Below, in pieces: positions 4,535-55,157 of a DNA stretch of 64,000 nucleotides (position 1 is the first letter of the stretch; each line of letters starts with the position of its first letter). Made by a program: the position numbers and the translations under genes. The notes under the pieces were generated by a model that worked only from the letters and a program-made list of their open reading frames with translations, searched no databases and had not been told where the DNA came from. Source of the stretch: Candidatus Krumholzibacteriota bacterium (GTDB taxonomy: Bacteria; Krumholzibacteriota; Krumholzibacteriia; Krumholzibacteriales; Krumholzibacteriaceae); the NCBI GenBank assembly GCA_016932415.1, contig JAFGCX010000031.1, positions 6,792-70,791 of the forward strand. Reading direction: 5' to 3'.

Positions 4535-5875
4535 ATGTTTCTAACAATAATCGCTTTTGTTTTTGTCTTGAGTATTGTTGTCCTGGTTCATGAACTGGGT
4601 CATTTTCTCGTGGCAAAGTTGAACGGGATTTACGTCATAACTTTTTCAATCGGTTTCGGCCCGAAAATACTCAGGTTCAAGTACGGGGAGACGGAATATG
4701 CGCTTTCAGCGCTTCCATTCGGCGGATACGTAAAATTTGCCGGAGAAAACGAGGGAGAAGAAGACAAGGAAGACGATTTCGAGAAGGATATTCCGGAAGA
4801 GAGACTGTATAAAAGCAAAAAGCCTGTCCAGAGGATGTCTGTTGTCCTCGCGGGACCGGCGATGAACGCGATTCTGGCTATCGTCCTTTACATATCGACT
4901 ATATGGATACAGGGCATCTTCGTGAGGAATCCTGGCGATGTGGTCAGTGGTGTCATTGATGATTCTCCCGCCGCCGTGGCTGGCTTTCAGACGGGAGACA
5001 GGATTATAGAGATCAACTCGAAGATTTTAAAACCCGGCGAGGAGATAAGCGACCTGGTCGATTACACTGAAGGCGCGAGTTCCACATTCCGGTTTTTAAG
5101 AGGGATCGACACTCTTACCGCGCAAGTGACGCCCGAATGGAATGAGGAAGCGGGCCGGCTTACGATAGGGATCTTTTCGAGCAGCAGGCCGATAATCGGG
5201 GACGTAAAAAAGGACAGTCCGGCTTATAAAGCCGGGATCCGTAGCGGTGCGCTAATCCTGGCCATGAATGATACGACTGTCTATACCTACCTTGAAATGG
5301 CAGAGAAAATCTATTCGCGCAACGGGATCCCGATAGAATTCAAGTGGGAACTCAATGGGGAGATACACAGTTCCGTGATCACTCCCACATCGATGGACGC
5401 TCCATCAGGAGGAGAAAAACTCGATGTGATCCAGGTCGGCGCGATCGGTGTAGGGGAGTTTTACGAGAAGCAGAGAGTCTCTTTTCCCGTTGCCGTCAAA
5501 TACGGGGCGAAGGCTTTCAGCAACCTCTTCGTGTCGATAATGAGTTTTCTCGGCAAACTGGTTACGGGAAAAGCCACACTCAAGGCTGTCGGAGGGCCGA
5601 TAAGAGTCGGTGTCATGGCGGGGGATATGATCAGATGGGGATTCAGCTATCTGATTAACTTCCTGGCGTTTTTCTCGATGAACCTGGCGATCTTCAATCT
5701 GTTGCCGATCCTTCCATTTGACGGAGGCCATTTCGTCATTTTTGTGGTCGAGGCTCTGACCGGGTATAAACCCGGACCGAAGGTTCAGAATGTGATGGCC
5801 CAGACAGGATTTATCATCCTGATAATTCTAATGGTGTTCATACTTTTCCTTGATCTGTTCAATCTTGTGAGGTGA
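4535..5875 (+). CDS. rseP: RseP-type site-2 protease (M50 family, two PDZ domains)
   Basis: Intramembrane zinc protease that cleaves anti-sigma factors or signal-peptide remnants in the inner membrane. The first membrane helix carries HELGH (His19, Glu20, His23); the last region carries the NLLPILPFDGG motif supplying the third metal ligand. Two PDZ-like segments lie roughly at residues 125-200 and 205-290. At 446 residues it matches RseP. Its site before an Omp85 gene follows the common dxr-rseP-bamA order. The anti-sigma factor at 27.0 kb is a possible but unproven substrate. Confidence 0.95.
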   Translation: MFLTIIAFVFVLSIVVLVHELGHFLVAKLNGIYVITFSIGFGPKILRFKYGETEYALSALPFGGYVKFAGENEGEEDKEDDFEKDIPEERLYKSKKPVQRMSVVLAGPAMNAILAIVLYISTIWIQGIFVRNPGDVVSGVIDDSPAAVAGFQTGDRIIEINSKILKPGEEISDLVDYTEGASSTFRFLRGIDTLTAQVTPEWNEEAGRLTIGIFSSSRPIIGDVKKDSPAYKAGIRSGALILAMNDTTVYTYLEMAEKIYSRNGIPIEFKWELNGEIHSSVITPTSMDAPSGGEKLDVIQVGAIGVGEFYEKQRVSFPVAVKYGAKAFSNLFVSIMSFLGKLVTGKATLKAVGGPIRVGVMAGDMIRWGFSYLINFLAFFSMNLAIFNLLPILPFDGGHFVIFVVEALTGYKPGPKVQNVMAQTGFIILIILMVFILFLDLFNLVR

Positions 5876-6321: not shown

Positions 6322-8265
6322 ATGAAGTTGTCAATTAATATGGTGGCGAGGACAATCAATCAGAATTCTGGAAGAATCGTCATTATACTTTTTCTTGTAA
6401 TGCTGATCGCCGGATATTCCTCCGATCTGTTATCAGATGATTTCGGTCTCGATCTCCCTTACGTCAAAAGGATCGTCATACTTGGCAACGTGACTTTTGA
6501 CGACGGTATTCTCAAAAAGAGGATGAGGACCAGGGAAGCACGTTATTATAATATCTTCAACAAGCCACGTTTCAGAAGGGATTTCATCCGAAGGGACCTT
6601 GAAAGCCTGAAGACTTTCTATAGACTTAACGGATTTTTCGAAGTCACCGTTAATCTCGAGTCCATAGACAGGGATAAAAAGGGGAATCACGTCACATTAC
6701 GTATCTTGGTGAATGAAGGTCCGCAATCGATTGTACGCAGTCTGCATTTTTCCGATCAGGATGCAGTCGCTCCGGAAACGCTGATAAAAGGCCTCAGACT
6801 TACAAAAGGTATGCCTTATAACCCGAACCTGGTGGAGACGGACAGGTACACCCTTTTCAGCCATTTTTTCAGAAAGGGATATCTTGGCGCGATGGTCGCC
6901 TGCAATACGAGGGTAGATTCAACGGATATTGATATATCGTGGGAAATTGCTCCAGGATCCCCGGTCAGAGTGGAGAAGATAGACATAAGCGGAAACCAGA
7001 AGGTCCGGGATGAGCTGATCCGAAGGGAATTAAAGATAGGATCGGGACAGTATTTTCAGCTCCGGAAAATAATCGAAAGCAAACAGAACCTTTATGATAC
7101 GGGATGTTTCAGCTCGGTGGAGATAGAACCCAAAGCGTTGGATGTTGATAGCGGAAAAGTCGATCTTCAGTTACAGGTCAGGGAAAGGAAGATGGGATAT
7201 CTCGAATCGGGTCTCGGTGTCGGAAATGTTCACGCTAACAGGGTCTTTGCCGAATGGGGGCAGAGGAATCTTCTGGGACGGGGATACGCGCTGGATATCA
7301 AAACGGCTTTTGCTTTCAGGATCTTCGAGGATAACAAGTATGCATTATCGGACGTCAAGTTTGAGAATAAATATCAACGGCACGAAGGCGAACTTAGATT
7401 CCCGCACATCCTGTCGACATGGAACACTTTTTCAGTGGGATCTTTTTACGAACGCGACGCCACAGTGGAACCGGTTATTGTCGAAGCGATCAGTTTTAAC
7501 GGTACCGTATCGCGCAGGATCTCAAGGCAGACTTCACTTCTTCTTGGATATGTCTATGAAAAAATAAGAAGGCAGGATGCTATCGATGAAAAGGAAAGGT
7601 CACTTCGAAGGTCACTCGATTTTACTTACCACAGAGATACGAGGGATTTCTATTTTAATCCGCGGCGGGGAAGATACATCGCGCTTGAGGCGAGATACGC
7701 CGGTGGGATCCTCGGGGGAGACGATCATTACTATTCCATAGTACCGTCATTTCAGGATTATCGCCGCCTGTCAGAAGAGACGGTCCTTGCGTACAGGGTA
7801 AGGGCCGGTTACGCAAAAGCTTTTGGAGATAGCCGGGATACCGGGTTGCCGATCGAAAGCAGGTTTTTCCTCGGAGGAGGTAACTCTGTCAGGGGTTACC
7901 GCGAAAACACACTGGGACCTCTTAACAGCACGGGAACAGCCAGGGGAGGCAACATCATGCTTCTGGCGAATATTGAGATGAGGTTTCCACTGCCAGTGAT
8001 CTCAAAATATAACTTCGGAGGAGCATTCTTCCTGGATGGCGGAAATGTCTGGGACTCCGTTTCCGATATAAAATTTGAAGAATTTGTTTTCATGAAGGAA
8101 AGATCCGATATATCGACCGCGGATTTCAGGTACAGTGCCGGTTTTGGATTGAGGTACTACACTCCGGTAGGACCTATCAGAATAGACGCGGGATTTCCGA
8201 TAACCCGGCCCGTAGACATCGATTACGATTACTGGATCCACATCAGCCTCGGACAGATCTTTTAA
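6322..8265 (+). CDS. Omp85 family outer-membrane assembly protein (BamA/TamA-like)
   Basis: Outer-membrane barrel that inserts or exports proteins across the outer membrane. The 647 residues comprise a hydrophobic signal segment (about 17-35), about three POTRA modules (roughly 48-290), and a 16-strand-type barrel with the lid-lock motif SVRGY (Arg524-Tyr526) and a C-terminal GPIRIDAGF...SLGQIF ending in Phe. Its place after rseP is that of bamA, but three POTRAs and the following tamB fit TamA better; if no other BamA exists in the genome it may serve both roles. No strong ribosome site precedes ATG 6322. Confidence 0.9.
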   Translation: MKLSINMVARTINQNSGRIVIILFLVMLIAGYSSDLLSDDFGLDLPYVKRIVILGNVTFDDGILKKRMRTREARYYNIFNKPRFRRDFIRRDLESLKTFYRLNGFFEVTVNLESIDRDKKGNHVTLRILVNEGPQSIVRSLHFSDQDAVAPETLIKGLRLTKGMPYNPNLVETDRYTLFSHFFRKGYLGAMVACNTRVDSTDIDISWEIAPGSPVRVEKIDISGNQKVRDELIRRELKIGSGQYFQLRKIIESKQNLYDTGCFSSVEIEPKALDVDSGKVDLQLQVRERKMGYLESGLGVGNVHANRVFAEWGQRNLLGRGYALDIKTAFAFRIFEDNKYALSDVKFENKYQRHEGELRFPHILSTWNTFSVGSFYERDATVEPVIVEAISFNGTVSRRISRQTSLLLGYVYEKIRRQDAIDEKERSLRRSLDFTYHRDTRDFYFNPRRGRYIALEARYAGGILGGDDHYYSIVPSFQDYRRLSEETVLAYRVRAGYAKAFGDSRDTGLPIESRFFLGGGNSVRGYRENTLGPLNSTGTARGGNIMLLANIEMRFPLPVISKYNFGGAFFLDGGNVWDSVSDIKFEEFVFMKERSDISTADFRYSAGFGLRYYTPVGPIRIDAGFPITRPVDIDYDYWIHISLGQIF

Positions 8266-8279
8266 CGGAGCCAAGGGAT

Positions 8280-11200
8280 TTGGTTAAAAAAATATTAAAA
8301 TCAAGGATCACGTCATTCGTTTCGCTGATAATAAGCCTTCTGCTGACAATGACGATTGTCGCCGGGATCATCTTTCATACTGATTTCTTCGCGAAGAGAA
8401 CGTCAACGATGTTTTCCCGGTATCTTTTCAGAGGGACCGGGTACACGCTGGAATTCAGGGCGATCTCCGGAAATCCGCTGGAGAGGATAAAAATCGAAGA
8501 TCTTCGTATCAGGTACAGGAGCAGTGAGTACGCCTTTGACCTTCTGCGTGTCGAAGAGATCTTCCTTAGCTATGATCTCGCGTCGCTATTCTCAACCGAG
8601 CCGTCGATAAACGAAATTATTTTCAATAGACCTCATGCGTGGATCAAGCCTGATTCCACGGGGGAGAATATACTGCCATTTAATGGGACTTCCACGGGTC
8701 GGTCAGGCCAGGTGAGATTCAGGGTGGAAAAATTCGATATCAATAACGGACAGTTAATATACCAGGGGAATCAGAGAGCCGACGCGTTGAAGAATCTGAA
8801 TCTGGAAGGTGCCGTACGTTCCGGGGAAAAAGGGATAATAGCCGATATCGGCTCGGGGAGTGCCGAGGATATAAGGCGAAAACTTCATATCAGGAATATA
8901 AGTGGCAATATAAGAAAGAACTCGGGAAGTCGATCTCCTGTAGACCGGATCGAAGTCAGTGACCTGTTCCTTGAACTGGATGAATCGTCGTTGCTGATCA
9001 ACGGGACATTCGATCCCGATTCAACAAGGTTCGGGCTGAATATCGCCGCTGAACCATTTGATGTCGAGGAGATATCAAGGCTTGTAGGTATAGAATCGGG
9101 ACAGTTTGGAGAACTGCAGGGAGTCCTCGCGGTAGAGGGTACGACGGGAGATCTCAAGATACGCGGTATGTTGAACGGTATATTGTCAGGATTCGCGCTT
9201 GATGGGTTCAAACTCGACCTCCGGTACGACACAAGAGCGGTTATGCTGAACAGTGGAGAAGGAAGATTAAATGGCGCCCTTGTGAATGGTAGCGGTGTTA
9301 TGCCGGTCAGTGGTGAGCGGATCATCAAACTTGATCTCGACGTCAATGATCTTGACCTCTCTGCCGGTTTCATAAGAAATAATTCGATTCCCGACACAAG
9401 GTTCAACGGTATGTTGATATTGAGATATGATGTCGATTCGAAAGAATTGTATTTCACGATGGACCTGAAGGAAGGGCATCTCAGAAAAATACCATTCAGC
9501 ACAATGACTGCTTCGGGCTCATACAGGGCTGATACTCTCTTTATGGACCAGATGACAATGGCATATCCGACTCATGATATTTCGACTACAGGTACGATAT
9601 CCAGGGATGGTGGGATAAGGCTGTTCATCGATACCGAATGCGCTAAAGATGACACTTTGTTTTCATATTTCAATATAGACGAATATCGGGCGAATCTTAA
9701 GTTCAACGGAATATGGGAAGGCAGTTTTGCCCGATGGGACCTCAGGGCCAGCGGATGTTGCACGGACATATTCTACAAAGGAGCGTACGTTCCTTCCGGA
9801 GATATTAAATTTGCTTTAAGCAGGGACGAATCATTTCGTTTCCTTTTTGAGATGCGGGGGGATAGCTGCGATATTGCGCCGTTGTCGTTTTCAGGGATAG
9901 ACCTGTCCCTGGAATACAATGACAACATAACAAGTATCAAGAGACTGTACCTGCAGAGGCCGGGCCTGGTCGCCGACATGCGTGGAGATCTGATAAAAAA
10001 CGAAGATATAACCGAGATAGTATTCAATGAAGTCTCAATAGATGCCCTCGAGGAACGCTGGTTGAGCAATGGAAAATTCAGCGTCAACATAAGTGAATCA
10101 AGGATCGAGTTCGATGACCTGCAGCTTCATTCCAGGCTCGGGGCTCTCTATATGGGGTGTGTCGTGGGAAGAGAAGACCGGAGGATCAACGGGAACTTTA
10201 CTTTCGACAGGCTTGGGCTGTCACTTTTTAACGCGGCTGGACTGATCAATAAGCCGGTAACGGGGAAGGGAGCGGGAGTGATAAATTGCCGAGGAACGAT
10301 CGACCAGCCCGGTTTTGACCTCGATATGGTTCTTGAGCAGATGATCTATGACAGCCTTTCCGTGGATTCTCTGAAACTTGTCGCGAACTATTCGGACCGG
10401 ATATTCGAGATCGATACTTTGTATATCGATTCTCCTGAAGGCATCCTTGAGATGAAAGGCACAGTCTCGGGAACTGATCCAAGAGAACTTTTAAAAGGGA
10501 GGGAAAAGGCGCTGCGCGGAGCCGTTGCCGATTTAGACGCCGTATGCGAGGATCTTTCACTCGTACCGCTTTTTTCACTTTCGGAAAAATCACCTTTTTC
10601 AGGTGGTGATTTTACGGGAATAATATCGGTCAGGGATTCACTGACCCATCCCCTTCTTGGAGTCGAGGGAAAGATCTCAGGGCTTTCAACCGATCGGTAC
10701 AGGATCCCGATGATCGACATTTCAGCCGATATAGACAGACAGTCGCTCAAGCTCGATGGGATAATGGAATTATCACAAGGACAGAGAGGGAGATTCAACG
10801 GAAATATCAATCTGAATCACGAGAAATGGTTCTATTCGATAGACCAGCATGAACCGATATCGGTCGGATTGAGTATTCCCGACGGGGAGTTGTCCAGCAT
10901 CACAGGCATGACCGATATAATCGCCGAGGCCGAAGGAAGGTTTTCAGCCGAATTCACCGTAACCGGTACTGCTTCAGAACCCAAGCTGCGGGGAAGACTG
11001 GATCTTGACCAGGCAGGTTTCAGGCTGGGAGGGATGGAGGAAAGATACAGGGGGATCAGGGCTGTAATAACCCTGGACGATACGCTGGTCACGATCAGGG
11101 AACTGCACGGGAAGGAAGGTAAGAACGGCAATTTCAATTGCGTGGGCAGCGTATCGCTCAAGGGATGGAGGCCAGAAAGGTATGACATAGATATAGAAGT

Positions 11201-12173
11201 CGACAAGATTCTCATAGCGAGCATTCCCGATGTAATGGCGATAGTAAGTGGAAACCTTGCAGTCGGAACTACTGAAAGCGGTGGAAAGAAGATTCCCGTA
11301 GTCACGGGCGACCTGAGTGTCAACAGGGCTGAGGTGTATATAGATTTCGGCGATTTCGCCTCTGTGCAGAAAAGTGGATCGCTTGAGCCGCCGGGATGGA
11401 TGGCGGAGGTCGACCTGGAAGTGAAGGGAAATACGTGGCTGAAGACACCGGACGCCAACGTCGAGATGGAAGGTGCTGTCACTCTGCATCATGATCAGAA
11501 GGGGTCATACGTGCGCGGTTCCCTTAATCTTATAAGGGGCTGGTATAATGTCTATAATAACAAGTTCCGGGTATCTTCGGGGAAACTGGAATTCGTGCAC
11601 GCCGACAGTTTCAGGCCTGTCATAGACGTTCAAGCCGAGACGAACGATCCCGAAGGCAGAAAGATCTATCTTACCCTTTCCTGGCACCAGGACGATATCG
11701 AACCGAGGCTTTCCCTGTATCACGAGGACGCTGGATACAGCGAGACTGATATCTGGAAAATGCTCGGAGGAGGAGTCATCGGAACGTCGGAAGGGGCGGG
11801 TGCGAGCTGGGATGCCATGAATACAGCCCAGAACCTGGCGGCCAACTACATAGAACGGATGTTAAACTCCCAGATGCAGGGAGTATTAATAGAAGTCGAG
11901 ACGAGTGGAGGAGCAAGCAGCGCTACAGAAGGGTTCGAGCCGGAAGAGACGATTGTGGCGATCGGCAAGTATCTCTCGGAAGGCCTTTATGTCAAATATA
12001 AACAAGGGTTGTCTATCTCAACGGCGCGTCATTTCGAGGTAGAATACAGGTTGAGCCGGCTCTTCCTGATCCGTTCCGAAGTCATAATGTATTCCGAGAA
12101 AGTACTTCAGGGCAGAAGCAAAAGAAACAGCGATGAGATCAACGTGGATTTCAAGGTCCGCTGGGAATTCTGA
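8280..12173 (+). CDS. tamB: TamB-like translocation/assembly module protein (DUF490)
   Basis: Long periplasm-spanning protein thought to work with an Omp85 partner or to move phospholipid between membranes. The 1,297 residues have one N-terminal membrane anchor (about 10-32), a long beta-rich repetitive middle like the AsmA/VPS13 bridge proteins, and a C-terminal DUF490/TamB domain (about 950-1297) with a conserved GLYVKYKQGLS...VEYRLSRLFLIRSE end. Start is TTG at 8280, 14 bp after the Omp85 stop, with AAGGGA upstream. Tight linkage to the Omp85 gene suggests a TamA-TamB pair. Confidence 0.92.
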   Translation: MVKKILKSRITSFVSLIISLLLTMTIVAGIIFHTDFFAKRTSTMFSRYLFRGTGYTLEFRAISGNPLERIKIEDLRIRYRSSEYAFDLLRVEEIFLSYDLASLFSTEPSINEIIFNRPHAWIKPDSTGENILPFNGTSTGRSGQVRFRVEKFDINNGQLIYQGNQRADALKNLNLEGAVRSGEKGIIADIGSGSAEDIRRKLHIRNISGNIRKNSGSRSPVDRIEVSDLFLELDESSLLINGTFDPDSTRFGLNIAAEPFDVEEISRLVGIESGQFGELQGVLAVEGTTGDLKIRGMLNGILSGFALDGFKLDLRYDTRAVMLNSGEGRLNGALVNGSGVMPVSGERIIKLDLDVNDLDLSAGFIRNNSIPDTRFNGMLILRYDVDSKELYFTMDLKEGHLRKIPFSTMTASGSYRADTLFMDQMTMAYPTHDISTTGTISRDGGIRLFIDTECAKDDTLFSYFNIDEYRANLKFNGIWEGSFARWDLRASGCCTDIFYKGAYVPSGDIKFALSRDESFRFLFEMRGDSCDIAPLSFSGIDLSLEYNDNITSIKRLYLQRPGLVADMRGDLIKNEDITEIVFNEVSIDALEERWLSNGKFSVNISESRIEFDDLQLHSRLGALYMGCVVGREDRRINGNFTFDRLGLSLFNAAGLINKPVTGKGAGVINCRGTIDQPGFDLDMVLEQMIYDSLSVDSLKLVANYSDRIFEIDTLYIDSPEGILEMKGTVSGTDPRELLKGREKALRGAVADLDAVCEDLSLVPLFSLSEKSPFSGGDFTGIISVRDSLTHPLLGVEGKISGLSTDRYRIPMIDISADIDRQSLKLDGIMELSQGQRGRFNGNINLNHEKWFYSIDQHEPISVGLSIPDGELSSITGMTDIIAEAEGRFSAEFTVTGTASEPKLRGRLDLDQAGFRLGGMEERYRGIRAVITLDDTLVTIRELHGKEGKNGNFNCVGSVSLKGWRPERYDIDIEVDKILIASIPDVMAIVSGNLAVGTTESGGKKIPVVTGDLSVNRAEVYIDFGDFASVQKSGSLEPPGWMAEVDLEVKGNTWLKTPDANVEMEGAVTLHHDQKGSYVRGSLNLIRGWYNVYNNKFRVSSGKLEFVHADSFRPVIDVQAETNDPEGRKIYLTLSWHQDDIEPRLSLYHEDAGYSETDIWKMLGGGVIGTSEGAGASWDAMNTAQNLAANYIERMLNSQMQGVLIEVETSGGASSATEGFEPEETIVAIGKYLSEGLYVKYKQGLSISTARHFEVEYRLSRLFLIRSEVIMYSEKVLQGRSKRNSDEINVDFKVRWEF

Positions 12174-12249
12174 GAGAAATGCCTTGAAATCAACGGAATG
12201 GAACGACATCTTTCAAGTGAAGCAGAGATTGAAGATTCGGAGGAGGAAG

Positions 12250-15200
12250 ATGAAGAAAACTGCCGGAATAGTGTTATTTTTTCTGGCCCTTGATCTTTTC
12301 CTTTTACACCTGCCCCTTTCCAGTGTCAGCGCCCAGGCATGGTGGTTCGGAAAGAACAAGGTACAGTACAAGGATTTCGAATGGCAGATTCTCAAGACTC
12401 CTCATTTTGATATCCATTTCAACCAGGGGTACCGCGATCTCGCCGGCAGGACTGGCGTCGTCCTTGAATACGGTTACGGCAAGCTCTCCGTGGACCTGAG
12501 GCATCACATATCATGGCGTATACCGGTGATCCTTTACGGCAGCCATTCGGATTTTCAACAGACCAACACGACCTGGCAGCTGCTTCCCGAGGGCGTACAG
12601 GCTTTCGCCGAACCGAGCAGAAGGAGGGTCGTCCTTCATTTCAACGGTTCAAACGTCGATTTCAGTCACACCGCGATACATGAACTTGTCCATATTTTTC
12701 AATTCGACATTATATACGGAAGCCTTCTCAGATCAGTGTTTTCAAGGAATATGCTTTTTAATATTCCTCTCTGGTTTGCGGAGGGTACTGCGGAATATTT
12801 CTCTGCCGGAGGAGTCGACGATGAATGCAGGATGTTCATGCGCGACGGTACGATCTTCGATTATCTTCCTTACGATCTGAATTATGCCGGTGGATACATG
12901 AATTACAAGGCCGGACAGTCAGCAATATCCTATATCGCCGAGACTTATGGTAAGGAAAAGGTCATTGAACTGATGGATCAACTTCGGTTCAACAGGTCGA
13001 TGGAGATGTCCCTTCATCGTACTATAGGTATCTCGACAGAGGAGCTTACGAAGAATTGGAAAAACAATCTCAGGCGGGAATACTGGCCCGAGTACGCCGA
13101 TAAGATGGAGGCGGAATCAATCGCCAGAAAAGTCACCGATCATCTTAAGAAGCATAACTATATAAACTCAAAACCCGTATTTTCGCCTGATGGAGAGTAT
13201 ATCGCCTATTATTCTGACAGGAGCGGTCTTGAAGGTATCTATATAATGGATTCAGTCACAGGCAAGAAGAAGAAAAAACTTCTTGTCGGGTCGACATCGA
13301 GTCAGTTCGAATACATAAGGACGAGACTTTCAAGCCTGACGTGGAATCCTGAATCGTCGGAGATTGCTTTTGTCGCCAAGTCGGATGGAAGGGACAGGTT
13401 GTTTCGGATGGGTGTCCCGGGGGGAAATATCATCGAGGAGATAGACCTTCCACTCGATTTCTTTTTCAACCCGGTATGGTCGCCGGACGGAGAAAAGATC
13501 ATTGTCGTGGGCACGCTCAGGGGGCAGACAGATCTCTTTTTTTATGACCTTGGAATGAAGAAACTTTTCCAGGTCACCGATGATACATGTGATGAAAAAT
13601 ATCCCGCCTGGTTCCCCGACGGAAAGAGGATCGTATATACACGTTATCCCGAACCCGTCAAGCAGCCTGTCTTCACGACTGACAGCACCGGAGTGGACAG
13701 GATTGAGAACCTCGACTATGCTGACATGAGTAACGTTCTTTCCGTCAAGGGTGATATCTGGATGATAGATATCCTGAGCGGAGAGAAAAGGCTCGTTATC
13801 TCCACTCCAGGCAACGACGAATCGCCACAGATACTATCCAATGGCCTGGAACTGTTATTTGTCTCGGATGAATCAGGGATAAGCAATCTTTACCGTGGAA
13901 GCTTCGAAATCGGAAGCTACCACCGTTTTACCGACATACTCGGAGGCCTGTTCAATCCTTCCGTCTCAAACGTCAAGGACCGTCTGGTCTTCTCCGCTTT
14001 TAACGCCGCCGGGTATGATCTTTTCATAATGGATAATTTCGAGGAAAAGTCGAGGGTGTCATATTCGACGGGTGGGCCCCTGTTGGCCGGGATCAAGGAG
14101 GAAAAATGGCCTTCGTTCGGAGTGCTTCCGGAGATCGATCCCTATGGAGGTTCCGGGTTGGAAGGTCCTGACCCTGAGGTTGAGCGGATCACTGTGGAAG
14201 AAAAGATGCCAGGGTCGCCCGACGGGAAGGAAGATCAATCGGTCGATACAAGTTCCGGTGCTGGAACCCCCCAGGGAGGAAGGTTTCCCGGCAGGAGATG
14301 GGAAAACGGAGCCGAAGTACCTGACGTGGTTATCAACGAAGATTCAAAAGAGAGGATCGATCCAGATTCGCTCGAGGCCCTGCGCGAATCTTTCAGAAAA
14401 CGTGTGGGCACAGTTGAAAAGTACAGAATCAAATTCTCTCCCGACTACATAGGAAACGGAATGGGGGTCTATTTCGCGACCGGACTCGGGTTCGGACTGT
14501 CCAACCAGATCGCGTTCAGCGACCTTCTGGGTGACCATCACCTCTTTCTGGCGTTCAGCCTCTATGGATCGGTAGAAGACAGCGATATGATGCTGTCATA
14601 TTACTATGTCAAGAAGAGGATCGATTATTCGCTCGGTATCTTTCAGTTCAAGAACTACCTCAATTCCAGGTTCTCCTCCGTGGGGGAGACATTTCTGGAC
14701 TACAGATATTTTACCGAGAGGAACTACGGCCTTTTTGGTAATGCTTCTTTTCCCTTTTCTACTTTTACAAGGGCGGAGATGGAACTCCAGGCGTACATGA
14801 GTGAGAGGGAGTTTCTTATACTCGATGATGGATCGTATTACGGGTATACCGTTTATGACAGCGATGTATCGGTAAAGAGGATGTTGCAACCATCTTTTTC
14901 CATAGTTCATGACTCGGCTTACTACGGGTCTTTCGGACCAGTGATAGGGTCCAGATGGATGCTCAGTTTTTCAAGGGCCCTGTCGTTCAGTGGACGCGAC
15001 ATATCGAGGACGACGGCGTTTCTCGATTATCGCAGGTACAGACCTCTCTTCTACAGGAACTACCTTGCCTTCAGGACAGTGGCAAGCAGCAGCAACGGGG
15101 AAGATAGGCGGTATTTCTTCCTCGGAGGCCCGACGACGATGCGAGGATACGATTACCTGCAGTTCCAGGGTTCAAGGATGATGCTTTTCAACCTCGAGTA

Positions 15201-15501
15201 CAGGTATCCACTCGTTGACGCGATAATATTCGGATGGCCGGGCAGATGGGCCTTGACGAATATCGGAGGGACGTTGTTTTTTGATACGGGATCTGTTTGG
15301 GGTGATGGAAGATATATCGAGAAGCTGCCCGCCGCAATAGACCCGGTGATGATAAACGATCTGGAGTTTTACAGTGATTTCGGGGTTGGATTCTATATGA
15401 GGATGGGTTTTCTCATATTTAATTTTCAGCTTGCCTGGCCGACTGATTTTTCAAATACCGGTGAACCGGTGTTCCATTTTTATCTGGGTCCGCAATTCTG
15501 A
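12250..15501 (+). CDS. Metallopeptidase (HExxH)-PD40 propeller-Omp85 barrel fusion protein
   Basis: I chose ATG 12250 because GGAGGAAG lies just upstream and a signal peptide (MKKTAGIVLFFLAL...VSAQA) follows; the frame extends further upstream over the tamB end but without these features. The 1,083-residue product has a gluzincin-type peptidase segment with HELVH (His144, Glu145, His148) and WFAEGTAEY (Glu178), PD40 propeller repeats (about 325-610, e.g. FSPDGEYIAYYSD), an acidic Pro/Gly-rich linker (about 650-740), and a C-terminal Omp85-like barrel with TTMRGYD and FDTGSVWGDG, ending in Phe. It has no POTRA modules. The peptidase fold resembles the peptidase MA-like family. Likely an outer-membrane protease; substrate unknown. 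Confidence 0.85.
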   Translation: MKKTAGIVLFFLALDLFLLHLPLSSVSAQAWWFGKNKVQYKDFEWQILKTPHFDIHFNQGYRDLAGRTGVVLEYGYGKLSVDLRHHISWRIPVILYGSHSDFQQTNTTWQLLPEGVQAFAEPSRRRVVLHFNGSNVDFSHTAIHELVHIFQFDIIYGSLLRSVFSRNMLFNIPLWFAEGTAEYFSAGGVDDECRMFMRDGTIFDYLPYDLNYAGGYMNYKAGQSAISYIAETYGKEKVIELMDQLRFNRSMEMSLHRTIGISTEELTKNWKNNLRREYWPEYADKMEAESIARKVTDHLKKHNYINSKPVFSPDGEYIAYYSDRSGLEGIYIMDSVTGKKKKKLLVGSTSSQFEYIRTRLSSLTWNPESSEIAFVAKSDGRDRLFRMGVPGGNIIEEIDLPLDFFFNPVWSPDGEKIIVVGTLRGQTDLFFYDLGMKKLFQVTDDTCDEKYPAWFPDGKRIVYTRYPEPVKQPVFTTDSTGVDRIENLDYADMSNVLSVKGDIWMIDILSGEKRLVISTPGNDESPQILSNGLELLFVSDESGISNLYRGSFEIGSYHRFTDILGGLFNPSVSNVKDRLVFSAFNAAGYDLFIMDNFEEKSRVSYSTGGPLLAGIKEEKWPSFGVLPEIDPYGGSGLEGPDPEVERITVEEKMPGSPDGKEDQSVDTSSGAGTPQGGRFPGRRWENGAEVPDVVINEDSKERIDPDSLEALRESFRKRVGTVEKYRIKFSPDYIGNGMGVYFATGLGFGLSNQIAFSDLLGDHHLFLAFSLYGSVEDSDMMLSYYYVKKRIDYSLGIFQFKNYLNSRFSSVGETFLDYRYFTERNYGLFGNASFPFSTFTRAEMELQAYMSEREFLILDDGSYYGYTVYDSDVSVKRMLQPSFSIVHDSAYYGSFGPVIGSRWMLSFSRALSFSGRDISRTTAFLDYRRYRPLFYRNYLAFRTVASSSNGEDRRYFFLGGPTTMRGYDYLQFQGSRMMLFNLEYRYPLVDAIIFGWPGRWALTNIGGTLFFDTGSVWGDGRYIEKLPAAIDPVMINDLEFYSDFGVGFYMRMGFLIFNFQLAWPTDFSNTGEPVFHFYLGPQF

Positions 15502-15511
15502 TAATCCCGTA

Positions 15512-15540
15512 TTTACCACATGGATCAGTAATGGTATTAT
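15512..15540 (+). promoter_or_regulatory. Sigma-70-type promoter for pcrA/uvrD
   Basis: TTTACC (15512-15517), a 17 bp spacer, and TATTAT (15535-15540), with TG-n directly before the -10 (extended -10). It lies about 78 bp before the chosen pcrA start in a gap with no gene. Confidence 0.5.
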
Positions 15541-15617
15541 ATCCGGCACGGTATTTCGCGACTGCCGGTGAGCCGGACGATAGGTTTGCGGGTGAACAGC
15601 AAAAGGAAAAGCGCTTC

Positions 15618-17777
15618 ATGATGAAATTCGATCTTAATCCGCGGCAGAAGGAAGCAGTGCTATCCACTGATGGATACTATCTTATTCTCGCCGGCGCGGG
15701 AAGCGGGAAAACAAGGGTCCTGACTGAAAGGATCGCCTACCTGATAAGAGAAAAAAATGTATCTCCGGAAAGGATCCTCGCCTTCACCTTCACTAATAAA
15801 GCGGCCGGAGAGATGCGAGCCCGCGTTGAAAGATCCCTTTCGCAAAGAAAAATTCCTTTCTGGGTCTCCACGTTCCATTCTACGGGGCTGAAAATATTAC
15901 GGAAAGAGGCGAACAGGATCGGGTTCAGGAACAATTTCGCGATATATGACGAGGATGATTCGATCAGGTTGATCAAGGATATCATCAGGAAGAAAAACTG
16001 GAATCTCGATGAATATCCGCCTTCGATCGTCCGGAACAGGATCTCCGCGTGGAAGAACAGTCTTGTCACTCCCGACGAAGCGGTCGAGACAGCCATCGAC
16101 GGTATTGAAGAGCTTCAGGCAAAGGTCTATCTTGCCTATGACATCGAACTGAAGAGATCCAATTCCTTTGATTTTGACGATCTGATAACCAGGGTCGTCG
16201 AACTCTTTACCGCCCATCCAAAGATAAGGGAAAGGTATGCCAGGCAATTCAAGTACGTCCTCGTTGACGAGTTCCAGGATACCAACACGATCCAGATGAT
16301 GATGATCGATATGCTCGCGTCGAAGAACAGGAACCTGTTTGTCGTCGGAGACGACGATCAGGCTATCTATGGATGGCGGGGGGCGACGATCGAGAATATA
16401 CTCCAGTTCGACAGGCTGTATGAAGGGACCGTAACGATCCGCCTCGAGGAGAATTATCGCTCTACAAACAATATTCTGTCCGCTTCCAACGCTGTCATAT
16501 CGAATAATCTCGATCGCAAAGGGAAGAAGCTCTGGTCAAAAAAGGGTGATGGTGAAAAAGTACGGACAGTCTACGCGTCTGATGACAGGGGAGAGGCCCT
16601 CGCGGTAAGGGAAGCCGTGATGAGATTGATAAGGAACGGATACAGGAGGGATGAGATAGCAGTCCTCTACAGGACTCACGCCCAGTCAAGGGCGCTCGAA
16701 ACGGCAATGATAAGGGGAGGGCTCCCATACCAGATAATCGGAGGAGTTAGGTTCTATGAGAGAAAAGAAATAAAAGACCTTCTCGGGTATCTGAAACTGG
16801 TCAACAATCCTGATGACAACCTTAATTTCAAGCGAGTGATAAATGTCCCGAAGAGAGGTATTGGAAACGTTACGATAGAAAGGATAGAGGAAGAAGCGGG
16901 GGACGGGAGTCTTCTGCCGGCAATCATATCGGGTGAGATACTCGACAGGTTTTCCTCATCCCAGAGGAAGCGTATAGAAGAATTTTCAAAACTGATTTCA
17001 GTAATGCGATTAAGGGCCAAAAACGACACGGCTTATGAAATACTGTCATATCTAATAGAAACAATTGGATACAGAGAATACTTAAAGGAAGATATCAAGA
17101 CTGCGCAGGTGAGGCTGGAGAATGTAGAGGAATTGCTCAACGAGACGAAGAGATTCGCCGCTGTCTCGGATGACCCCTCGCTACCCGCATTTCTCGAGGA
17201 GATAGCTCTGATAAGCAATGTCGATTCGATGAGAGATGAAGACAAAATCGCTCTTATGACCCTTCACAATTCGAAAGGCCTCGAATACAGATCAGTGATG
17301 ATCACGGGGCTCGAGGAAGGCCTGTTACCGCATTTCTCGTCTTTTGATGACGAGAGGGAGATGGAAGAGGAAAGAAGGCTTTTTTACGTCGGAATGACAA
17401 GGGCGAAAGAGGAATTATATCTTTTCTGCGCGGCAAGCAGGATGCAATTCGGCAACTGGAACGACAACCGACCTTCCAGGTTTCTCGAAGAGATCCCTGA
17501 AAAGTATAAGGAGATAACCGGCGTAAACCGGCAGATCGAAGGAGGGGGCGATATTTTCAGGCAGGTAGATCAGATCGAATCGCTGGAACGCGGTGAGGAC
17601 AGGATAAGCAATGACAGCAGGTTCAGAGTAGGGGTCTCGATCTCTCATCCATCATTCGGCGAAGGGACGATAAAGAAGGTGGAAGGGACGGGGATGGAGA
17701 TGAGAGTGACCGTTCACTTCACCGGATTCGGGCAGAAGAAATTCCTGGCTCATTACGCGCCATTCAGGTTCAATTAA
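15618..17777 (+). CDS. pcrA: UvrD/PcrA-type superfamily 1 DNA helicase
   Basis: ATP-dependent 3'-5' helicase acting in excision repair, replication restart and recombination control. Start at ATG 15618 gives 719 residues, the usual size; the frame is open upstream from 15531 but adds non-conserved residues. Visible are the Walker A AGAGSGKT (25-32), VDEFQDTN, GDDDQAIYGWRGA, LEENYRST, LMTLHNSKGLEY and VGMTRAKEELYLF. The last 50 residues (VGVSISHPSFGEGTI...VHFTGFGQKKF) form the Tudor-like tail known from PcrA. A single-gene unit is likely; the next gene is on the other strand. Confidence 0.95.
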   Translation: MMKFDLNPRQKEAVLSTDGYYLILAGAGSGKTRVLTERIAYLIREKNVSPERILAFTFTNKAAGEMRARVERSLSQRKIPFWVSTFHSTGLKILRKEANRIGFRNNFAIYDEDDSIRLIKDIIRKKNWNLDEYPPSIVRNRISAWKNSLVTPDEAVETAIDGIEELQAKVYLAYDIELKRSNSFDFDDLITRVVELFTAHPKIRERYARQFKYVLVDEFQDTNTIQMMMIDMLASKNRNLFVVGDDDQAIYGWRGATIENILQFDRLYEGTVTIRLEENYRSTNNILSASNAVISNNLDRKGKKLWSKKGDGEKVRTVYASDDRGEALAVREAVMRLIRNGYRRDEIAVLYRTHAQSRALETAMIRGGLPYQIIGGVRFYERKEIKDLLGYLKLVNNPDDNLNFKRVINVPKRGIGNVTIERIEEEAGDGSLLPAIISGEILDRFSSSQRKRIEEFSKLISVMRLRAKNDTAYEILSYLIETIGYREYLKEDIKTAQVRLENVEELLNETKRFAAVSDDPSLPAFLEEIALISNVDSMRDEDKIALMTLHNSKGLEYRSVMITGLEEGLLPHFSSFDDEREMEEERRLFYVGMTRAKEELYLFCAASRMQFGNWNDNRPSRFLEEIPEKYKEITGVNRQIEGGGDIFRQVDQIESLERGEDRISNDSRFRVGVSISHPSFGEGTIKKVEGTGMEMRVTVHFTGFGQKKFLAHYAPFRFN

Positions 17778-19899: not shown

Positions 19900-20934
19900 T
19901 CACGGCCTGAGATCCTCTATAAACGAAGCGTCTATCCAGTATATCCCCGCGGATCCGCCGCCCGGTTCACTTGACATCCTTATCATAAGGTCGCGCGTCA
20001 TGCCCCCATCGGGATGTTCGAATTCCTTTTTCATCCTTGCCGACATAAAAAATAAATATTTTCCATCGGGGGATATATACGCGGAATGTTCACGCCCTCC
20101 TGGCGTGTTGACCTTCGCGCCCATATTGACAAGGTCGGACCATGTGTCATCGGGATCGCGGAAACTTATGAAATAATCATCCCCGCCGAGTCCGTCTTCT
20201 CTGCCCGCGACCGGGACGATAATGAAATCCTCATCGGGAGATATGAAAGCGTTATACTGAGCCGAAGTGGAATTGACGTTTTCCGGGAGCTTCTCCGCTT
20301 CGGTATATTTTCCATCAATGAGCCGTGATCTGAAGATGTAGCTCGACCTGCCCTCGTTACGCGTAAAATAGAGCGTACCATCCCTTGTAATCGATGGAAA
20401 GAATTCAGCCGCTTCAGTCGTGATCGGAGGCCCGGGCGTGTAAGGTTCGCTCCACGAATCGCCGATCCTGTCCATCATCCATATATTCTGGCTTCCCGCG
20501 GCGATCCCGTTCGCCGAGTCAGGTCTGGTGGACAGAAACATGAATCTGCTTCCGTCGGGAGAGATGGCAGGTTCAGCGTCCATATAATCGGGATTTCCCG
20601 AGAAAGAGGCGACTTCCGGTTTTGTCCAGACTCCGTTGATATTCTTCGTACAGAGGATCTGGGTTATCCTGTAGAACCCGACAATAGCGGTGAAATATAT
20701 CTCTTTTCCGTCCGGAGTCATGGCGATATCCCTCGTGAAGAGCCCTGTCGTCACAAGCCCCGGCGCGAACAGTTCAGGTTCGAGTCCGGGCGTGTCCTGT
20801 CCGAGATACTCGCCCGTAAGAACGGGAAACGTCTGGTCTCCGGACGAACGAGGACCGTCAGAGCAACCAGAAAGCATTATAAAAATGACCGGTACGACAG
20901 TGAGGGTCGATTTCAGTATCGAGGAAAGACGCAT
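19900..20934 (-). CDS. PD40 beta-propeller lipoprotein
   Basis: The start at 20934 is chosen because GGAGGT lies 8 bp upstream and the product opens with a lipoprotein signal (MRLSSILKSTL...IMLSGC, lipobox Cys near residue 24); the open frame extends further without these. The 344-residue protein carries WD40-like PD40 repeats with the SPDG turn: MTPDGKEIYFTA, ISPDGSRFMFLSTR, ITRDGTLYFTRN, ISPDEDFIIVP, ISPDGKYLFFMS. This matches TolB-like propellers that bind proteins or glycans at the cell surface. Likely anchored on the outer or inner membrane. No catalytic residues recognised. Confidence 0.8.
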   Translation of the reverse strand: MRLSSILKSTLTVVPVIFIMLSGCSDGPRSSGDQTFPVLTGEYLGQDTPGLEPELFAPGLVTTGLFTRDIAMTPDGKEIYFTAIVGFYRITQILCTKNINGVWTKPEVASFSGNPDYMDAEPAISPDGSRFMFLSTRPDSANGIAAGSQNIWMMDRIGDSWSEPYTPGPPITTEAAEFFPSITRDGTLYFTRNEGRSSYIFRSRLIDGKYTEAEKLPENVNSTSAQYNAFISPDEDFIIVPVAGREDGLGGDDYFISFRDPDDTWSDLVNMGAKVNTPGGREHSAYISPDGKYLFFMSARMKKEFEHPDGGMTRDLMIRMSSEPGGGSAGIYWIDASFIEDLRP

Positions 20935-21042
20935 CAGACATACCTCCGCTAAAAAGAGATGACAGCCAACGGGCAGGCGGGCATGAGAATTATACATCAG
21001 GCCAGGCGACCGGGCAACAGTGATCTTGAAAGGCCGCCGGGA

Positions 21043-43538: not shown

Positions 43539-46382
43539 TTGAAACTGTTTTTTTCAACGACCAGATTTTTTTGCGGACTTGCCCTGGCTCTGATCCTGCT
43601 GGGCACGATCCCCGGCGCGGGCCTTTCGAGGCCGGTCTCTCCCCGAGACGGCGGCCCCATGCCCGAGTCCTGTCTGAAGACGCTCAAGGAAGAGAAAGGC
43701 GCTTTCAGGCCTGGGCTAAGGTGGTTGAAAAGCAGAAGGTCTTTTCTTCACGATAAAAATCATTTTATGCCGTTCCCCGATGCCTCTGCCGGAGGATCGG
43801 GAGCGGTCATCAAGGGGAGCACTCTGCCGCCGGTTACCGGTGATTTCGTAATACCTGTGATAACAGGCGCCTTCAGCGATTTCAGCGAGACGCCGGAGTC
43901 TGTGGAAGAACTCCAGAGAATACTCTTCGATGGTCCGGCTTTTCCGGGAACTTTTTCCGAATATTACAGCGAGAACTCTTTCGGGAATCTTGACGTCTCA
44001 GGAAAAGTATACGGCTGGGCGGAGCTTTCGCAACCAGAGATATATTATACAGGGCCGGTGAATCACGGCCTTACTCCCGGCGTATCGCACACGGACGAGA
44101 TGATCGCCGAGACTGTCGCCGCTCTCGACGGCGTCATCGATTTCGGTCTTTATGACAACGATGGCCCCGACGGTGTGGCAAATTCGGGGGATGACGACGG
44201 TTATGTCGATCTTCTCGTCATTGTTCATCCCGCAAGGGGAGGAGAATGCGGCGGTCCCGATCATATCTGGTCTCATTCATGGCAGTATTCATCATGGAAC
44301 GAAGAGAGGGAGCCTCTCGAGACGCAGGATATATCCGCCGGTGGAGGCCATATAGTCATCGATGATTATTTTATAGCCCCTGCAGTTTCCTGCGAAGGCG
44401 GTCTGATAGAGATAGGAGTCTTCTGCCACGAGTTCGGCCATTCCCTCGGGCTTCCGGACCTTTATGACTATAACGGCGGAGGAAGAGGGATAGGTTTCTG
44501 GGGACTGATGGGGAGTGGTAACTGGAATACTCCCAAGTCGCCGGCGCACCTGTCCGCGTGGTCGCGCGAACAGCTTGGCTGGATAGATCCTGTAGAGATC
44601 GGCTGGGTCGAAGAGGAGCGCGTTCTTGAATCGATAAACGAGGGTGGAACTGTCCTGAAACTGGTATTGCCATCGAAACGTTTCCGCAGGATGCCGAATC
44701 CGTTCCCAGTGGGCGGAAAAGCGATGATTTGCGCCTATACCGAAGCCGAGGCGTCGGCGAGGGGATGGAACGGAGGAGCGGGGTATGGGAACGGGTGGAA
44801 CGAATCGATCTTTCATCCATTTCACACTGATGGAAACGGCAGCTTGATCTTTGAATACAATATCGGCTTGGATGTCGAACCGGAGTACGATAACGTCTAT
44901 CTCTATCTCGACGCCGGTGGTAGTTCGCATCTCGTCGCTCAGTATACGGGAACGGTCTACCCGTTCAGGGAGGAGATAGACCTGGAGCCGTTTCTTCCCC
45001 AGGGTCCGGTGGATTTCATCATGAGGTTTCTCTTCGTCTCGGATTTTAATTTCAGCGACGAGGACAACAGGTACGATTCAATGGAAGGCTGGTCGCTGAA
45101 TATCGATAACGTCGGACTTTACGGGGGTGGTAACGAGTATACATGCGATTTCGAGAAAGATGAGGGGGGTTGGCGTTGCGGCTCTGATCCTGCCGAATAT
45201 TTTCTCGTCGAGAACCGCCAGCGGGGAGGTTTTGATATGAACCTTCCCGGTTCGGGACTTCTGGTGTGGCACGCCGAAAACAGCATAGCCTTCTCGGATC
45301 TTGGTAACAGTGGGGGATATTCCAATACGCAGGCGCGGGGTCTCGTCCTGCAGGAAGCTGACGGGCAGTTCGATCTGCTTGCGTATCTGGTCCCGCCCAA
45401 TACCGGCGACAAGGGCGACCCTTTTCCGGGAAGCACTGGAAATAGTGATTTCGACTCGTACACGGTGCCGTCGAGCAGGGGAAACGACGGGCTTTCAACC
45501 CCTGTTTCGATACGTGGGATCTCCGGAGGATCGGCATTCTTCAGAGCAGGGATGCCCGCCCCCGTGATTTCCTCAGTCGAGCCTGGTTCTGTTGTCAGGG
45601 GAGAGGATCAGACAGTGATCCTTGATATAGCAGGTTCCGGATTCCTCTATGGCTCGACCTGTTTCCTTTCCAACGGCGCGACGATCATTCCAGCCATGGA
45701 GACCGAATGGTTCGGAGAGGGATCGTTAGAGGGATCGTTCGAAGCGGAACAGCTCTACCGCGGCCTGTGGGATCTTACCGTCATAAGCGGAGACGCTCAG
45801 ACATCCTCTCTCCCCGGCGCTCTCGCTGTCGAGTCGGTCTTCGGTCCGTTCAGAGTAGAATCGATGAGAAGTACGATAGATATCTTATGGGATGTCTACC
45901 TTACCGAAGGGCTCACAGGGTGCATGCTTTACAGAAAGTCGGAAGGGACAGGTTTCGTACCGGTAAGGGCGGATACTTTCAGGGAAGGCTCTGGGGAATT
46001 CATCTGGTCGGACAGCGGCGTCATACCGGAGATAGAGTATTCATACAGGATAACCGCCTTTTATCCCGGCAGGTCGGAGGACCTGATCCTTGCCGGGCCG
46101 TGGAGTATCGAGGATGAACCCTTTTCTCTCGATCGTGCCTATCCCAACCCGTTCGCGGAATCGGTATCGGTCGATTTTTTCCTCGACCGGCCTATGATGA
46201 TAGAGATGCTCGTCTATGATGTGTCGGGCCGGCGCATCGATTCGATCGAACGGGCGCCGTACACGAGAGGTGAAAATACGATAGTATGGATCCCTCGCTC
46301 CGGGACATCGGCATCTGTCTATTTTATTATCCTTGATAACGGTACCGCGAAAAAAACCGTCAAAGTCGTATTCCTCCCCTGA
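43539..46382 (+). CDS. Secreted M6-type metallopeptidase with T9SS-like C-terminal sorting domain
   Basis: 947 residues from a TTG start with little ribosome-site signal, probably coupled to the lipoprotein gene. After a signal peptide (about 1-32) comes an immune-inhibitor-A (M6) catalytic domain: YYSENSFGNLDVSGKVYGWAE, HPARGG, and zinc site CHEFGHSLGLPD (His297, Glu298, His301). Then a jelly-roll-like region, an IPT/Ig-like stretch (VISSVEPGSVVRGEDQTV) and a final ~85 residues with AYPNPF, VYDVSGRRID and VYFIIL, the FlgD/T9SS type A sorting pattern. Expected to be exported and attached to or released from the cell surface. Substrate unknown. Confidence 0.88.
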   Translation: MKLFFSTTRFFCGLALALILLGTIPGAGLSRPVSPRDGGPMPESCLKTLKEEKGAFRPGLRWLKSRRSFLHDKNHFMPFPDASAGGSGAVIKGSTLPPVTGDFVIPVITGAFSDFSETPESVEELQRILFDGPAFPGTFSEYYSENSFGNLDVSGKVYGWAELSQPEIYYTGPVNHGLTPGVSHTDEMIAETVAALDGVIDFGLYDNDGPDGVANSGDDDGYVDLLVIVHPARGGECGGPDHIWSHSWQYSSWNEEREPLETQDISAGGGHIVIDDYFIAPAVSCEGGLIEIGVFCHEFGHSLGLPDLYDYNGGGRGIGFWGLMGSGNWNTPKSPAHLSAWSREQLGWIDPVEIGWVEEERVLESINEGGTVLKLVLPSKRFRRMPNPFPVGGKAMICAYTEAEASARGWNGGAGYGNGWNESIFHPFHTDGNGSLIFEYNIGLDVEPEYDNVYLYLDAGGSSHLVAQYTGTVYPFREEIDLEPFLPQGPVDFIMRFLFVSDFNFSDEDNRYDSMEGWSLNIDNVGLYGGGNEYTCDFEKDEGGWRCGSDPAEYFLVENRQRGGFDMNLPGSGLLVWHAENSIAFSDLGNSGGYSNTQARGLVLQEADGQFDLLAYLVPPNTGDKGDPFPGSTGNSDFDSYTVPSSRGNDGLSTPVSIRGISGGSAFFRAGMPAPVISSVEPGSVVRGEDQTVILDIAGSGFLYGSTCFLSNGATIIPAMETEWFGEGSLEGSFEAEQLYRGLWDLTVISGDAQTSSLPGALAVESVFGPFRVESMRSTIDILWDVYLTEGLTGCMLYRKSEGTGFVPVRADTFREGSGEFIWSDSGVIPEIEYSYRITAFYPGRSEDLILAGPWSIEDEPFSLDRAYPNPFAESVSVDFFLDRPMMIEMLVYDVSGRRIDSIERAPYTRGENTIVWIPRSGTSASVYFIILDNGTAKKTVKVVFLP

Positions 46383-53684: not shown

Positions 53685-53719
53685 TTGAACCAGTTGGAAA
53701 AAAAGAAGATAGGATATAG

Positions 53720-53805
<86 letters not shown>

Positions 53806-53858
53806 GGAGAAAAATTACCAGCCGGAGGAAAAACTGGCCGTTTCAGAGGAAAGGAATC

Positions 53859-55157
53859 ATGGCAGAGAATCTTGAAGATCTCGGTATCAGCGTAAATATC
53901 ACCGAAGAGGATGATTGCAGGAAAATACTCAATATAGAGGTCCGATCGGATCTTTTCACCGGAGAGAAAGAGCGGATACTGAAGAATATGATGAAATCGA
54001 TCGTTCTCCCGGGATTCCGCAAAGGAAAGGCTCCAAGAGACAGGGTAAAGACCCAGTTTGCCGGCGAGATCCATAACGAGGCGATGAAGGTCGTATTGCC
54101 TATGGCCTACGAGCATGCTCTTTACAGCGAAAAGGTCCAGCCGATCGGAGAGCCGGTCTTCAGCGAGATAGTAGCCGAAGATGACAAGCCTCTTACTTTC
54201 AAGGTCGAACTTGAGACGGCGCCCCGGATAGAACTGAAGCAGTACAGGGGGCTTGCTTCGAAGCCCGAAGAGGTCAGTGTCGAAGATAAGGAGATCGAGA
54301 ATGTACTGAAGAATCTTCAGCAGCGCGAGGTCTCCTATAACACCGTCGACCATGAAGCGCGAAGCAACGATATGGTGACGATAGATTATGTCTCGATAGA
54401 TGAACAGGGGGAACCTGAAAACGACAGGGGAATGAAGGATTATCCCGTTCAGCTGGGCGAGGGGCAGCTTTTCCCCGAATTCGAGAAGGCGATCCTTGGG
54501 AAAAAAGCCGGCGAAGAGGGCGAAGTGGCGATAGACTATCCCGATGACTACAAGCCTGAAAGGCTTGCGGGACTGAAAGTAAGTTTCCGGTTCACAGTCA
54601 AGGAAGTGAAGGAAAAGATCCTTCCGGAGATCGACGACCAGTTCGCCGCGAGGATAGACGAGAAGTTCAAGACTGTCGATGACCTGAGGAATGACATCAG
54701 GGAAAAGCTCCTCGATGAGAAAAGCCGGGAAGCAAGGCGCAAGGTCGAAGAAGAGGCGGTGGACAGGATACTGGAAAAAAACCCGTTCGATGTACCCGGA
54801 AGCATGATAGAGCGATTCAGGAGCGAACTCGAAAGCGAGGACGAAAGAAGAAGATCGATGAGCGGGATGCCTCCGGAGGAGGATGAAGAGAAGAAGAAAG
54901 AGATGACGGAATTCTTTGACCGGATGGCAAGAAGAAATATCAAGAGGTATTTCCTTCTCGGCCATATCGCCAACCTCGAGAAAGTCGAGATCTCTGCCGG
55001 AGATATGGATAAAGAGATCGAAAGACTTGCCGAAGAAGGCGGTAGAGAGCTTGAAGAGGTCAGGAAGGTCATTGAGAAGGGAAGCGAGAATTATAATAAT
55101 CTGCGCAGCCGCTTGCGTGAAAAGAGGATCTTCGAGATCCTGCTGGAGAAGGAATAA
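53859..55157 (+). CDS. tig: Trigger factor
   Basis: Ribosome-bound chaperone with peptidyl-prolyl isomerase domain. ATG 53859 follows AGAGGAAAGG; the longer open frame runs through the tRNA and is not coding. 432 residues: N-terminal ribosome-binding domain with [11 protein letters not shown] (the GFRxGxxP signature), FKBP-type domain (about 155-240: [35 protein letters not shown]), and a long, highly charged helical C-terminal domain. The first gene of the tig-clpP-clpX-lon set. Confidence 0.96.

Follow-up and report, generated by a model that had tools for sequence, protein, structure and literature searches.

A protein of 1,083 amino acids from Candidatus Krumholzibacteriota combines a predicted zinc metallopeptidase, a TolB-type beta-propeller and a POTRA-less beta-barrel, which our models place in the Omp85 superfamily, in a single polypeptide, and its gene directly follows a tamA-tamB pair. 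Sequence comparison indicates that this fusion is an old family, present across Krumholzibacteriota and Bacteroidota and divided into several paralog clades, one of which lacks the zinc site.

The gene spans positions 12250 to 15501 (plus strand) of the window, the 64,000-nucleotide stretch of DNA analyzed here. The ATG at 12250 is preceded by a strong Shine-Dalgarno sequence, GAGGAGG (12240 to 12246, plus strand), recognized from the sequence, and a longer version of the open reading frame (ORF), starting at 12133, would overlap tamB. A fusion artifact or frameshift was ruled out, since dozens of genomes keep this frame open; the ORF is real. A probable signal peptide (residues 1 to 28, ending in SSVSA; 12250 to 12333), with a cleavage site predicted from the sequence, is followed by the mature N-terminal motif FGKNKVQY (residues 33 to 40; 12346 to 12369). 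The zincin domain (residues ∼45 to 286; 12382 to 13107) matched Peptidase_MA_2 (PF13485) at 5.3e-9 and the propeller (residues 290 to 603; 13117 to 14058) matched PD40 at 2.8e-21, both above the curated Pfam cutoffs in a scan of the whole protein. The HELVH zinc motif (H144 to H148; 12679 to 12693) and the third ligand, E178 of WFAEG (12781 to 12783), form an HExxH-plus-downstream-Glu signature that assigns the zincin to the Peptidase MA clan, and proteolytic activity is predicted. Up to E 1, the 1,083-residue protein matched neither POTRA in the Pfam scan nor an M48 peptidase profile, and the Pfam scan gave no match to a patatin domain. A sequence search of the PDB with the peptidase domain returned as its best match an uncharacterized protein at E 0.016. 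An earlier note, made from the sequence alone, had proposed a peptidase, a PD40 propeller and an Omp85 barrel, with protease and propeller as the soluble part in place of POTRA domains; the Pfam matches and the structural matches to BamA and TolB described below bear this out, and the residues that it named (H144, E145, H148, E178, R965, G966 and Y967) are at the correct positions.

A full-length structure model, computed with 13 sequences (pLDDT 65, pTM 0.48), was good for the zincin (pLDDT mostly 70 to 90) and the propeller and weaker for the barrel. The modeled propeller superimposed on E. coli TolB (1c5k) with a VIA Z score of 26.3 over 243 residues (rmsd 2.4), a whole-protein comparison that bears on the propeller only, the zincin being assigned by Pfam and its ligands. 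The propeller is followed by a low-confidence linker of ∼110 residues (604 to 716; 14059 to 14397; pLDDT ∼26 to 36 across most of residues 604 to 700) that leads into a predicted helix at residues 705 to 719. The barrel (residues 725 to 1083, with a C-terminal Phe; 14422 to 15498) was missed by Pfam in the whole-protein scan, where only NCBIfam Omp85_fam appeared (2.6e-6, under its cutoff); scanned alone, the region matched PF01103 at 1.4e-8, and a relative (L041) passed the cutoffs of all three domains simultaneously. A barrel profile also matched BamA chains by sequence. Folded alone, with middling confidence (pLDDT 63, pTM 0.64), the barrel aligned with E. coli BamA at Z 20.2 over 308 residues (rmsd 4.1), spanning the whole BamA barrel; Foldseek gave 5e-10, and every structural match among those listed was to BamA, TamA or Sam50. 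The predictions contain ∼16 strands, the last of them at low confidence, in agreement with the closed 16-strand barrel that the earlier note had expected. Its end at residue 1083 stands, and its start lies nearer residue 725 than the ∼745 first proposed. Omp85 proteins carry the RG(Y/F) motif in loop 6, which joins strands 11 and 12; R965-G966-Y967 (15142 to 15150) falls between predicted strands 11 and 12.

All genes of the surrounding locus lie on the plus strand: rseP (4535 to 5875; named from gene order and sequence), a TamA-type Omp85 gene with POTRA domains (6322 to 8265; POTRA 2.4e-33, Omp85 5.4e-56), tamB (8280 to 12173; 1,297 amino acids, PF04357 2.4e-34), the fusion gene, and a UvrD/PcrA-type helicase gene (15531 to 17777; named from sequence, with a start probably later than 15531). 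Pfam thus supports the position directly after an Omp85-tamB pair that had been read from the sequence. The 6322-to-8265 product also scored above the NCBIfam BamA (YaeT) cutoff; we took it as TamA-type because another gene of the same genome (on C20, 748 amino acids) has BamA length and more POTRA domains. No terminator-like site was found on the plus strand between tamB and the fusion gene. The same genome carries a second pair in the reverse order, tamB-tamA (contig C10, L172:4667-10530), encoding a TamB of 1,358 amino acids (PF04357 1e-41) and a TamA-type Omp85 of 597 amino acids with POTRA. Beyond the helicase, the minus strand of the window (19900 to 20997) encodes a further PD40 propeller protein whose signal peptide is lipoprotein-like.

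Close relatives that bear a name are mostly from Krumholzibacteriota, and full-length relatives occur throughout that phylum, with identities in related genomes ranging from 78 to ∼31%. Sampling 118 genomes of the Bacteroidota phylum (the GTDB phylum of Hymenobacter), we found a strong match in 79. A midpoint-rooted tree of 101 proteins, in which some nodes are weak, separated five groups: the tamB-linked Krumholzibacteriota group (A), shorter type-2 paralogs from both phyla (B), a third group (C), a Bacteroidota-phylum group (D), and a group with the named Bacteroidia members, Hymenobacter, Thermoflexibacter and Cytophagales (E). With such a root and such nodes, the tree gives no firm answer on orthology between the tamB-linked clades of Krumholzibacteriota and those of the Bacteroidota phylum. 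The window's genome has its own type-2 paralog (C1:35479-38265; L052:6480-9335), which is 952 amino acids long, has an intact zinc site and adjoins a gene resembling dapF and an ORF that looks like a Big_5 lipoprotein. A lipoprotein-like ORF follows the type-2 gene in several genomes of the Bacteroidota phylum; in L130 it matches PQQ_2 ("BamB," 1.2e-26).

Groups A to D, with 92 proteins, had the complete HExxH motif and downstream Glu without exception; all 8 group E proteins lacked them, and the loop 6 RG was present in 100/100. Among 20 further proteins, 12 had a complete zinc site and 8 did not, and 19 had the loop 6 RG; the 8 zinc-less proteins joined group E, which then comprised 16 tips with a support of 1.0 (three of them near-identical or duplicates). 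In total, the ligands are kept in 104/104 proteins outside group E and lost in 16/16 within it. The expectation that relatives would keep the zinc ligands was therefore correct for the window's lineage but not for the Bacteroidia clade. Group E proteins retain the propeller, the RGY barrel and the FGKNKVQY motif. In the simplest reading of the sequences, a single lineage lost the protease in one event and retained the remainder of the protein. Because group E lost the zinc site yet kept the rest, the scaffold would have a role of its own.

The motif FG(K/R/Q)N(K/R)VQY follows directly after the signal peptide in nearly every member of all clades, including the zinc-less one, and its conservation is roughly that of the active-site region. 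When the motif was searched for as a degenerate DNA pattern, the window's genome matched at four places, and only the fusion protein and the type-2 paralog carry a motif of this type at the N terminus; of the other two matches, one lies inside an unrelated protein and one where no gene fits. The structure model is not confident at the motif, for which we infer a docking function.

The gene lies immediately downstream of tamB in ∼30 Krumholzibacteriota genomes from families f1, f2, f4, f5, f6 and f7 (two of the f5 cases were judged by coordinates). Wherever the flank of a group A locus was long enough, tamB lay directly upstream and the helicase downstream, and the order rseP-tamA-tamB-gene-uvrD was present in all sufficiently long group A loci, down to ∼31 to 40% identity. 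In family f3, a small FG-GAP repeat protein (L048:8247-8990, L050:7479-8225; named by Pfam on the L048 copy) precedes the group C gene in place of tamB. Ten genomes of the Bacteroidota phylum show the order tamB-rnr-gene, in which Pfam identified RNase R and TamB, and a Bacteroidetes locus (L035) has a TamB-like ORF, then another ORF and then the fusion gene. The association with tamB noted for the window thus holds across two phyla, whose neighborhoods, apart from tamB, have little in common and differ in the intervening genes. In several other Bacteroidota-phylum genomes the fusion gene lies away from tamB, and one of these has only rnr adjacent. No TamB was found near group E genes in loci with long enough flanks, an association between group E and missing linkage that common ancestry confounds.

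The gene is also optional. Across the 29 genomes of family f5, a full-length relative is missing from 21; in four of these the locus runs rseP-tamA-tamB-uvrD, tamB being followed immediately by the helicase, and a fifth has tamB-uvrD on a short contig. From these loci, the fusion gene appears to be dispensable beside tamA-tamB, with TAM working without it. We set aside one apparent gene loss (G012), since the whole region, including the helicase, is missing.

Several known systems share parts of this design. TamA and TamL, the outer membrane Omp85 partners of TamB, likewise have an Omp85 barrel and a gene beside tamB; the fusion protein, however, has a zincin and a propeller instead of POTRA domains, and in Krumholzibacteriota its gene is additional to the TamA-type gene. 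Its propeller has the fold of BamB and TolB (Z 26 to TolB), but both are separate periplasmic proteins that are not fused to a barrel. In the patatin-like Omp85 protein PlpD (type Vd), too, an enzyme domain precedes the Omp85 barrel within a single polypeptide; the fusion protein differs from PlpD by another enzyme, a TolB propeller, the lack of POTRA and the link to tamB. BepA (YfgC) is a soluble periplasmic M48 peptidase with TPR. It works with BAM on LptD as a periplasmic Zn-metallopeptidase (PMC8423444). The likeness is that of metallopeptidases proposed for outer membrane protein (OMP) assembly, a comparison of the way of working only; the fusion protein, in contrast, has a Peptidase MA zincin joined to a barrel.

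The nearest published description is the WD40-Omp85 subfamily, defined by Heinz and Lithgow in 2014, who catalogued it without a function and suggested a BamA-BamB-like fusion (PMC4104836). As published, it has a propeller that is structurally closest to TolB and lies N-terminal to a POTRA-less Omp85 barrel, as in our protein, but the main text of that paper contains no peptidase (the word itself is absent), no FGKNKVQY motif and no link to TamB; its "Metallo" subfamily corresponds to PF00149, a different domain from Peptidase_MA_2 (PMC4104836). Under the terms searched, such a protein is not mentioned in a paper on TAM evolution (PMC4494059), in the TamL paper (PMC12045153) or in two 2025 papers on the Bacteroidota BAM (PMC12611786, PMC12578637). 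BamP homologs are restricted to Flavobacteriaceae (PMC12611786), and a PDB search, by sequence only, gave no match of two Bacteroidia relatives to the chains of the Flavobacterium johnsoniae BAM complex, including BamP. The open-license literature yielded nothing relevant on Omp85 combined with PD40, gluzincin or Peptidase MA; an earlier description elsewhere is possible. The fused protease, the TamB linkage, the N-terminal motif and the inactive clade thus appear to be undescribed so far.

We tentatively favor, at somewhat less than an even chance, a model in which the protein is an outer membrane-anchored, periplasm-facing accessory of TamA-TamB whose propeller binds clients and whose zinc peptidase edits them. 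The C-terminal barrel would sit in the outer membrane and, from canonical Omp85 topology, the N-terminal part would face the periplasm on its flexible linker; the propeller may bind a partner or client, and the peptidase may clip or remove stalled or misfolded TAM or OMP clients, by analogy with BepA at BAM. Both the partnership with TamB and client proteolysis are inferred here, and a conserved neighborhood can be inherited without shared function. The tamB linkage could be inherited gene order alone, the gene hitchhiking among rseP, rnr, uvrD and similar housekeeping genes while its product, perhaps a general envelope protease, functions elsewhere. The genome with rnr adjacency and no tamB, the many unlinked Bacteroidota-phylum copies and the undisturbed tamA-tamB left by gene loss agree with this explanation, but tamB is what the two phyla share while the intervening genes differ, and we consider hitchhiking improbable. 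We attach an equally low probability to surface delivery, in which the barrel or BAM would move a protease-propeller passenger across the outer membrane as in PlpD, an Omp85-family protein that exports its N-terminal enzyme (PMC4104836). The long linker and the predicted helix just before the barrel would suit such a route; the missing POTRA and patatin matches, the periplasmic N terminus of canonical Omp85 barrels and a gene tied to tamB rather than standing alone argue against it.

A less unlikely alternative, to which we still give only a minor share, is a POTRA-less assembly or insertion factor, handling for instance OMPs, lipoproteins or lipids. Its conserved work would fall to the barrel, the propeller and the N-terminal motif, leaving the zincin a regulatory or vestigial part. 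This alternative draws on the inactivated zincin of all Bacteroidia-clade proteins, in which the other parts stay, and on a motif roughly as conserved as the active-site region, but the unbroken retention of the ligands in the other clades points to strong selection for catalysis there. The earlier idea of a protease as the core role is accordingly weakened, by a whole Bacteroidia clade without the zinc site and by many intact tamA-tamB operons without the gene; quality control of outer membrane assembly is still a reasonable if hypothetical reading of the sequences, and the self-insertion that the earlier note also raised stays a conjecture. Proteolysis is probable in the window's lineage and probably not a universal role of the family. 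Since the Bacteroidia clade keeps the scaffold but not the zinc site, the more general role is probably docking or assembly, to which proteolysis would be added. More speculatively, and with a probability that we set low, the accessory of TamA-TamB favored here might represent a third kind of outer membrane TamB partner, a POTRA-less Omp85 protein that docks to TamB or the assembly machinery through its motif and propeller and brings its own editing protease, later switched off in Bacteroidia.

TAM is under active study as a device for OMP and lipid transport, and for most diderm phyla outside Proteobacteria there are little functional data. A gene of this kind beside tamA and tamB in the little-studied Krumholzibacteriota suggests an unstudied add-on to outer membrane assembly, and a conserved Omp85 that is linked to tamB and carries its own protease would be a candidate editing or docking module. 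The zinc-positive clades and the zinc-negative Bacteroidia clade offer a natural comparison that makes the role of proteolysis testable.

Elsewhere in the window, the ORF at 43539 to 46382 encodes an M6 (immune inhibitor A) metalloprotease whose C terminus weakly matches Por_Secre_tail (8.7e-4, under the cutoff), possibly a type IX-like sorting tail in Krumholzibacteriota. The listed start of the ORF at 53685 to 55157 crosses a tRNA-Leu gene (53721 to 53805), and the real trigger factor-like gene begins downstream.
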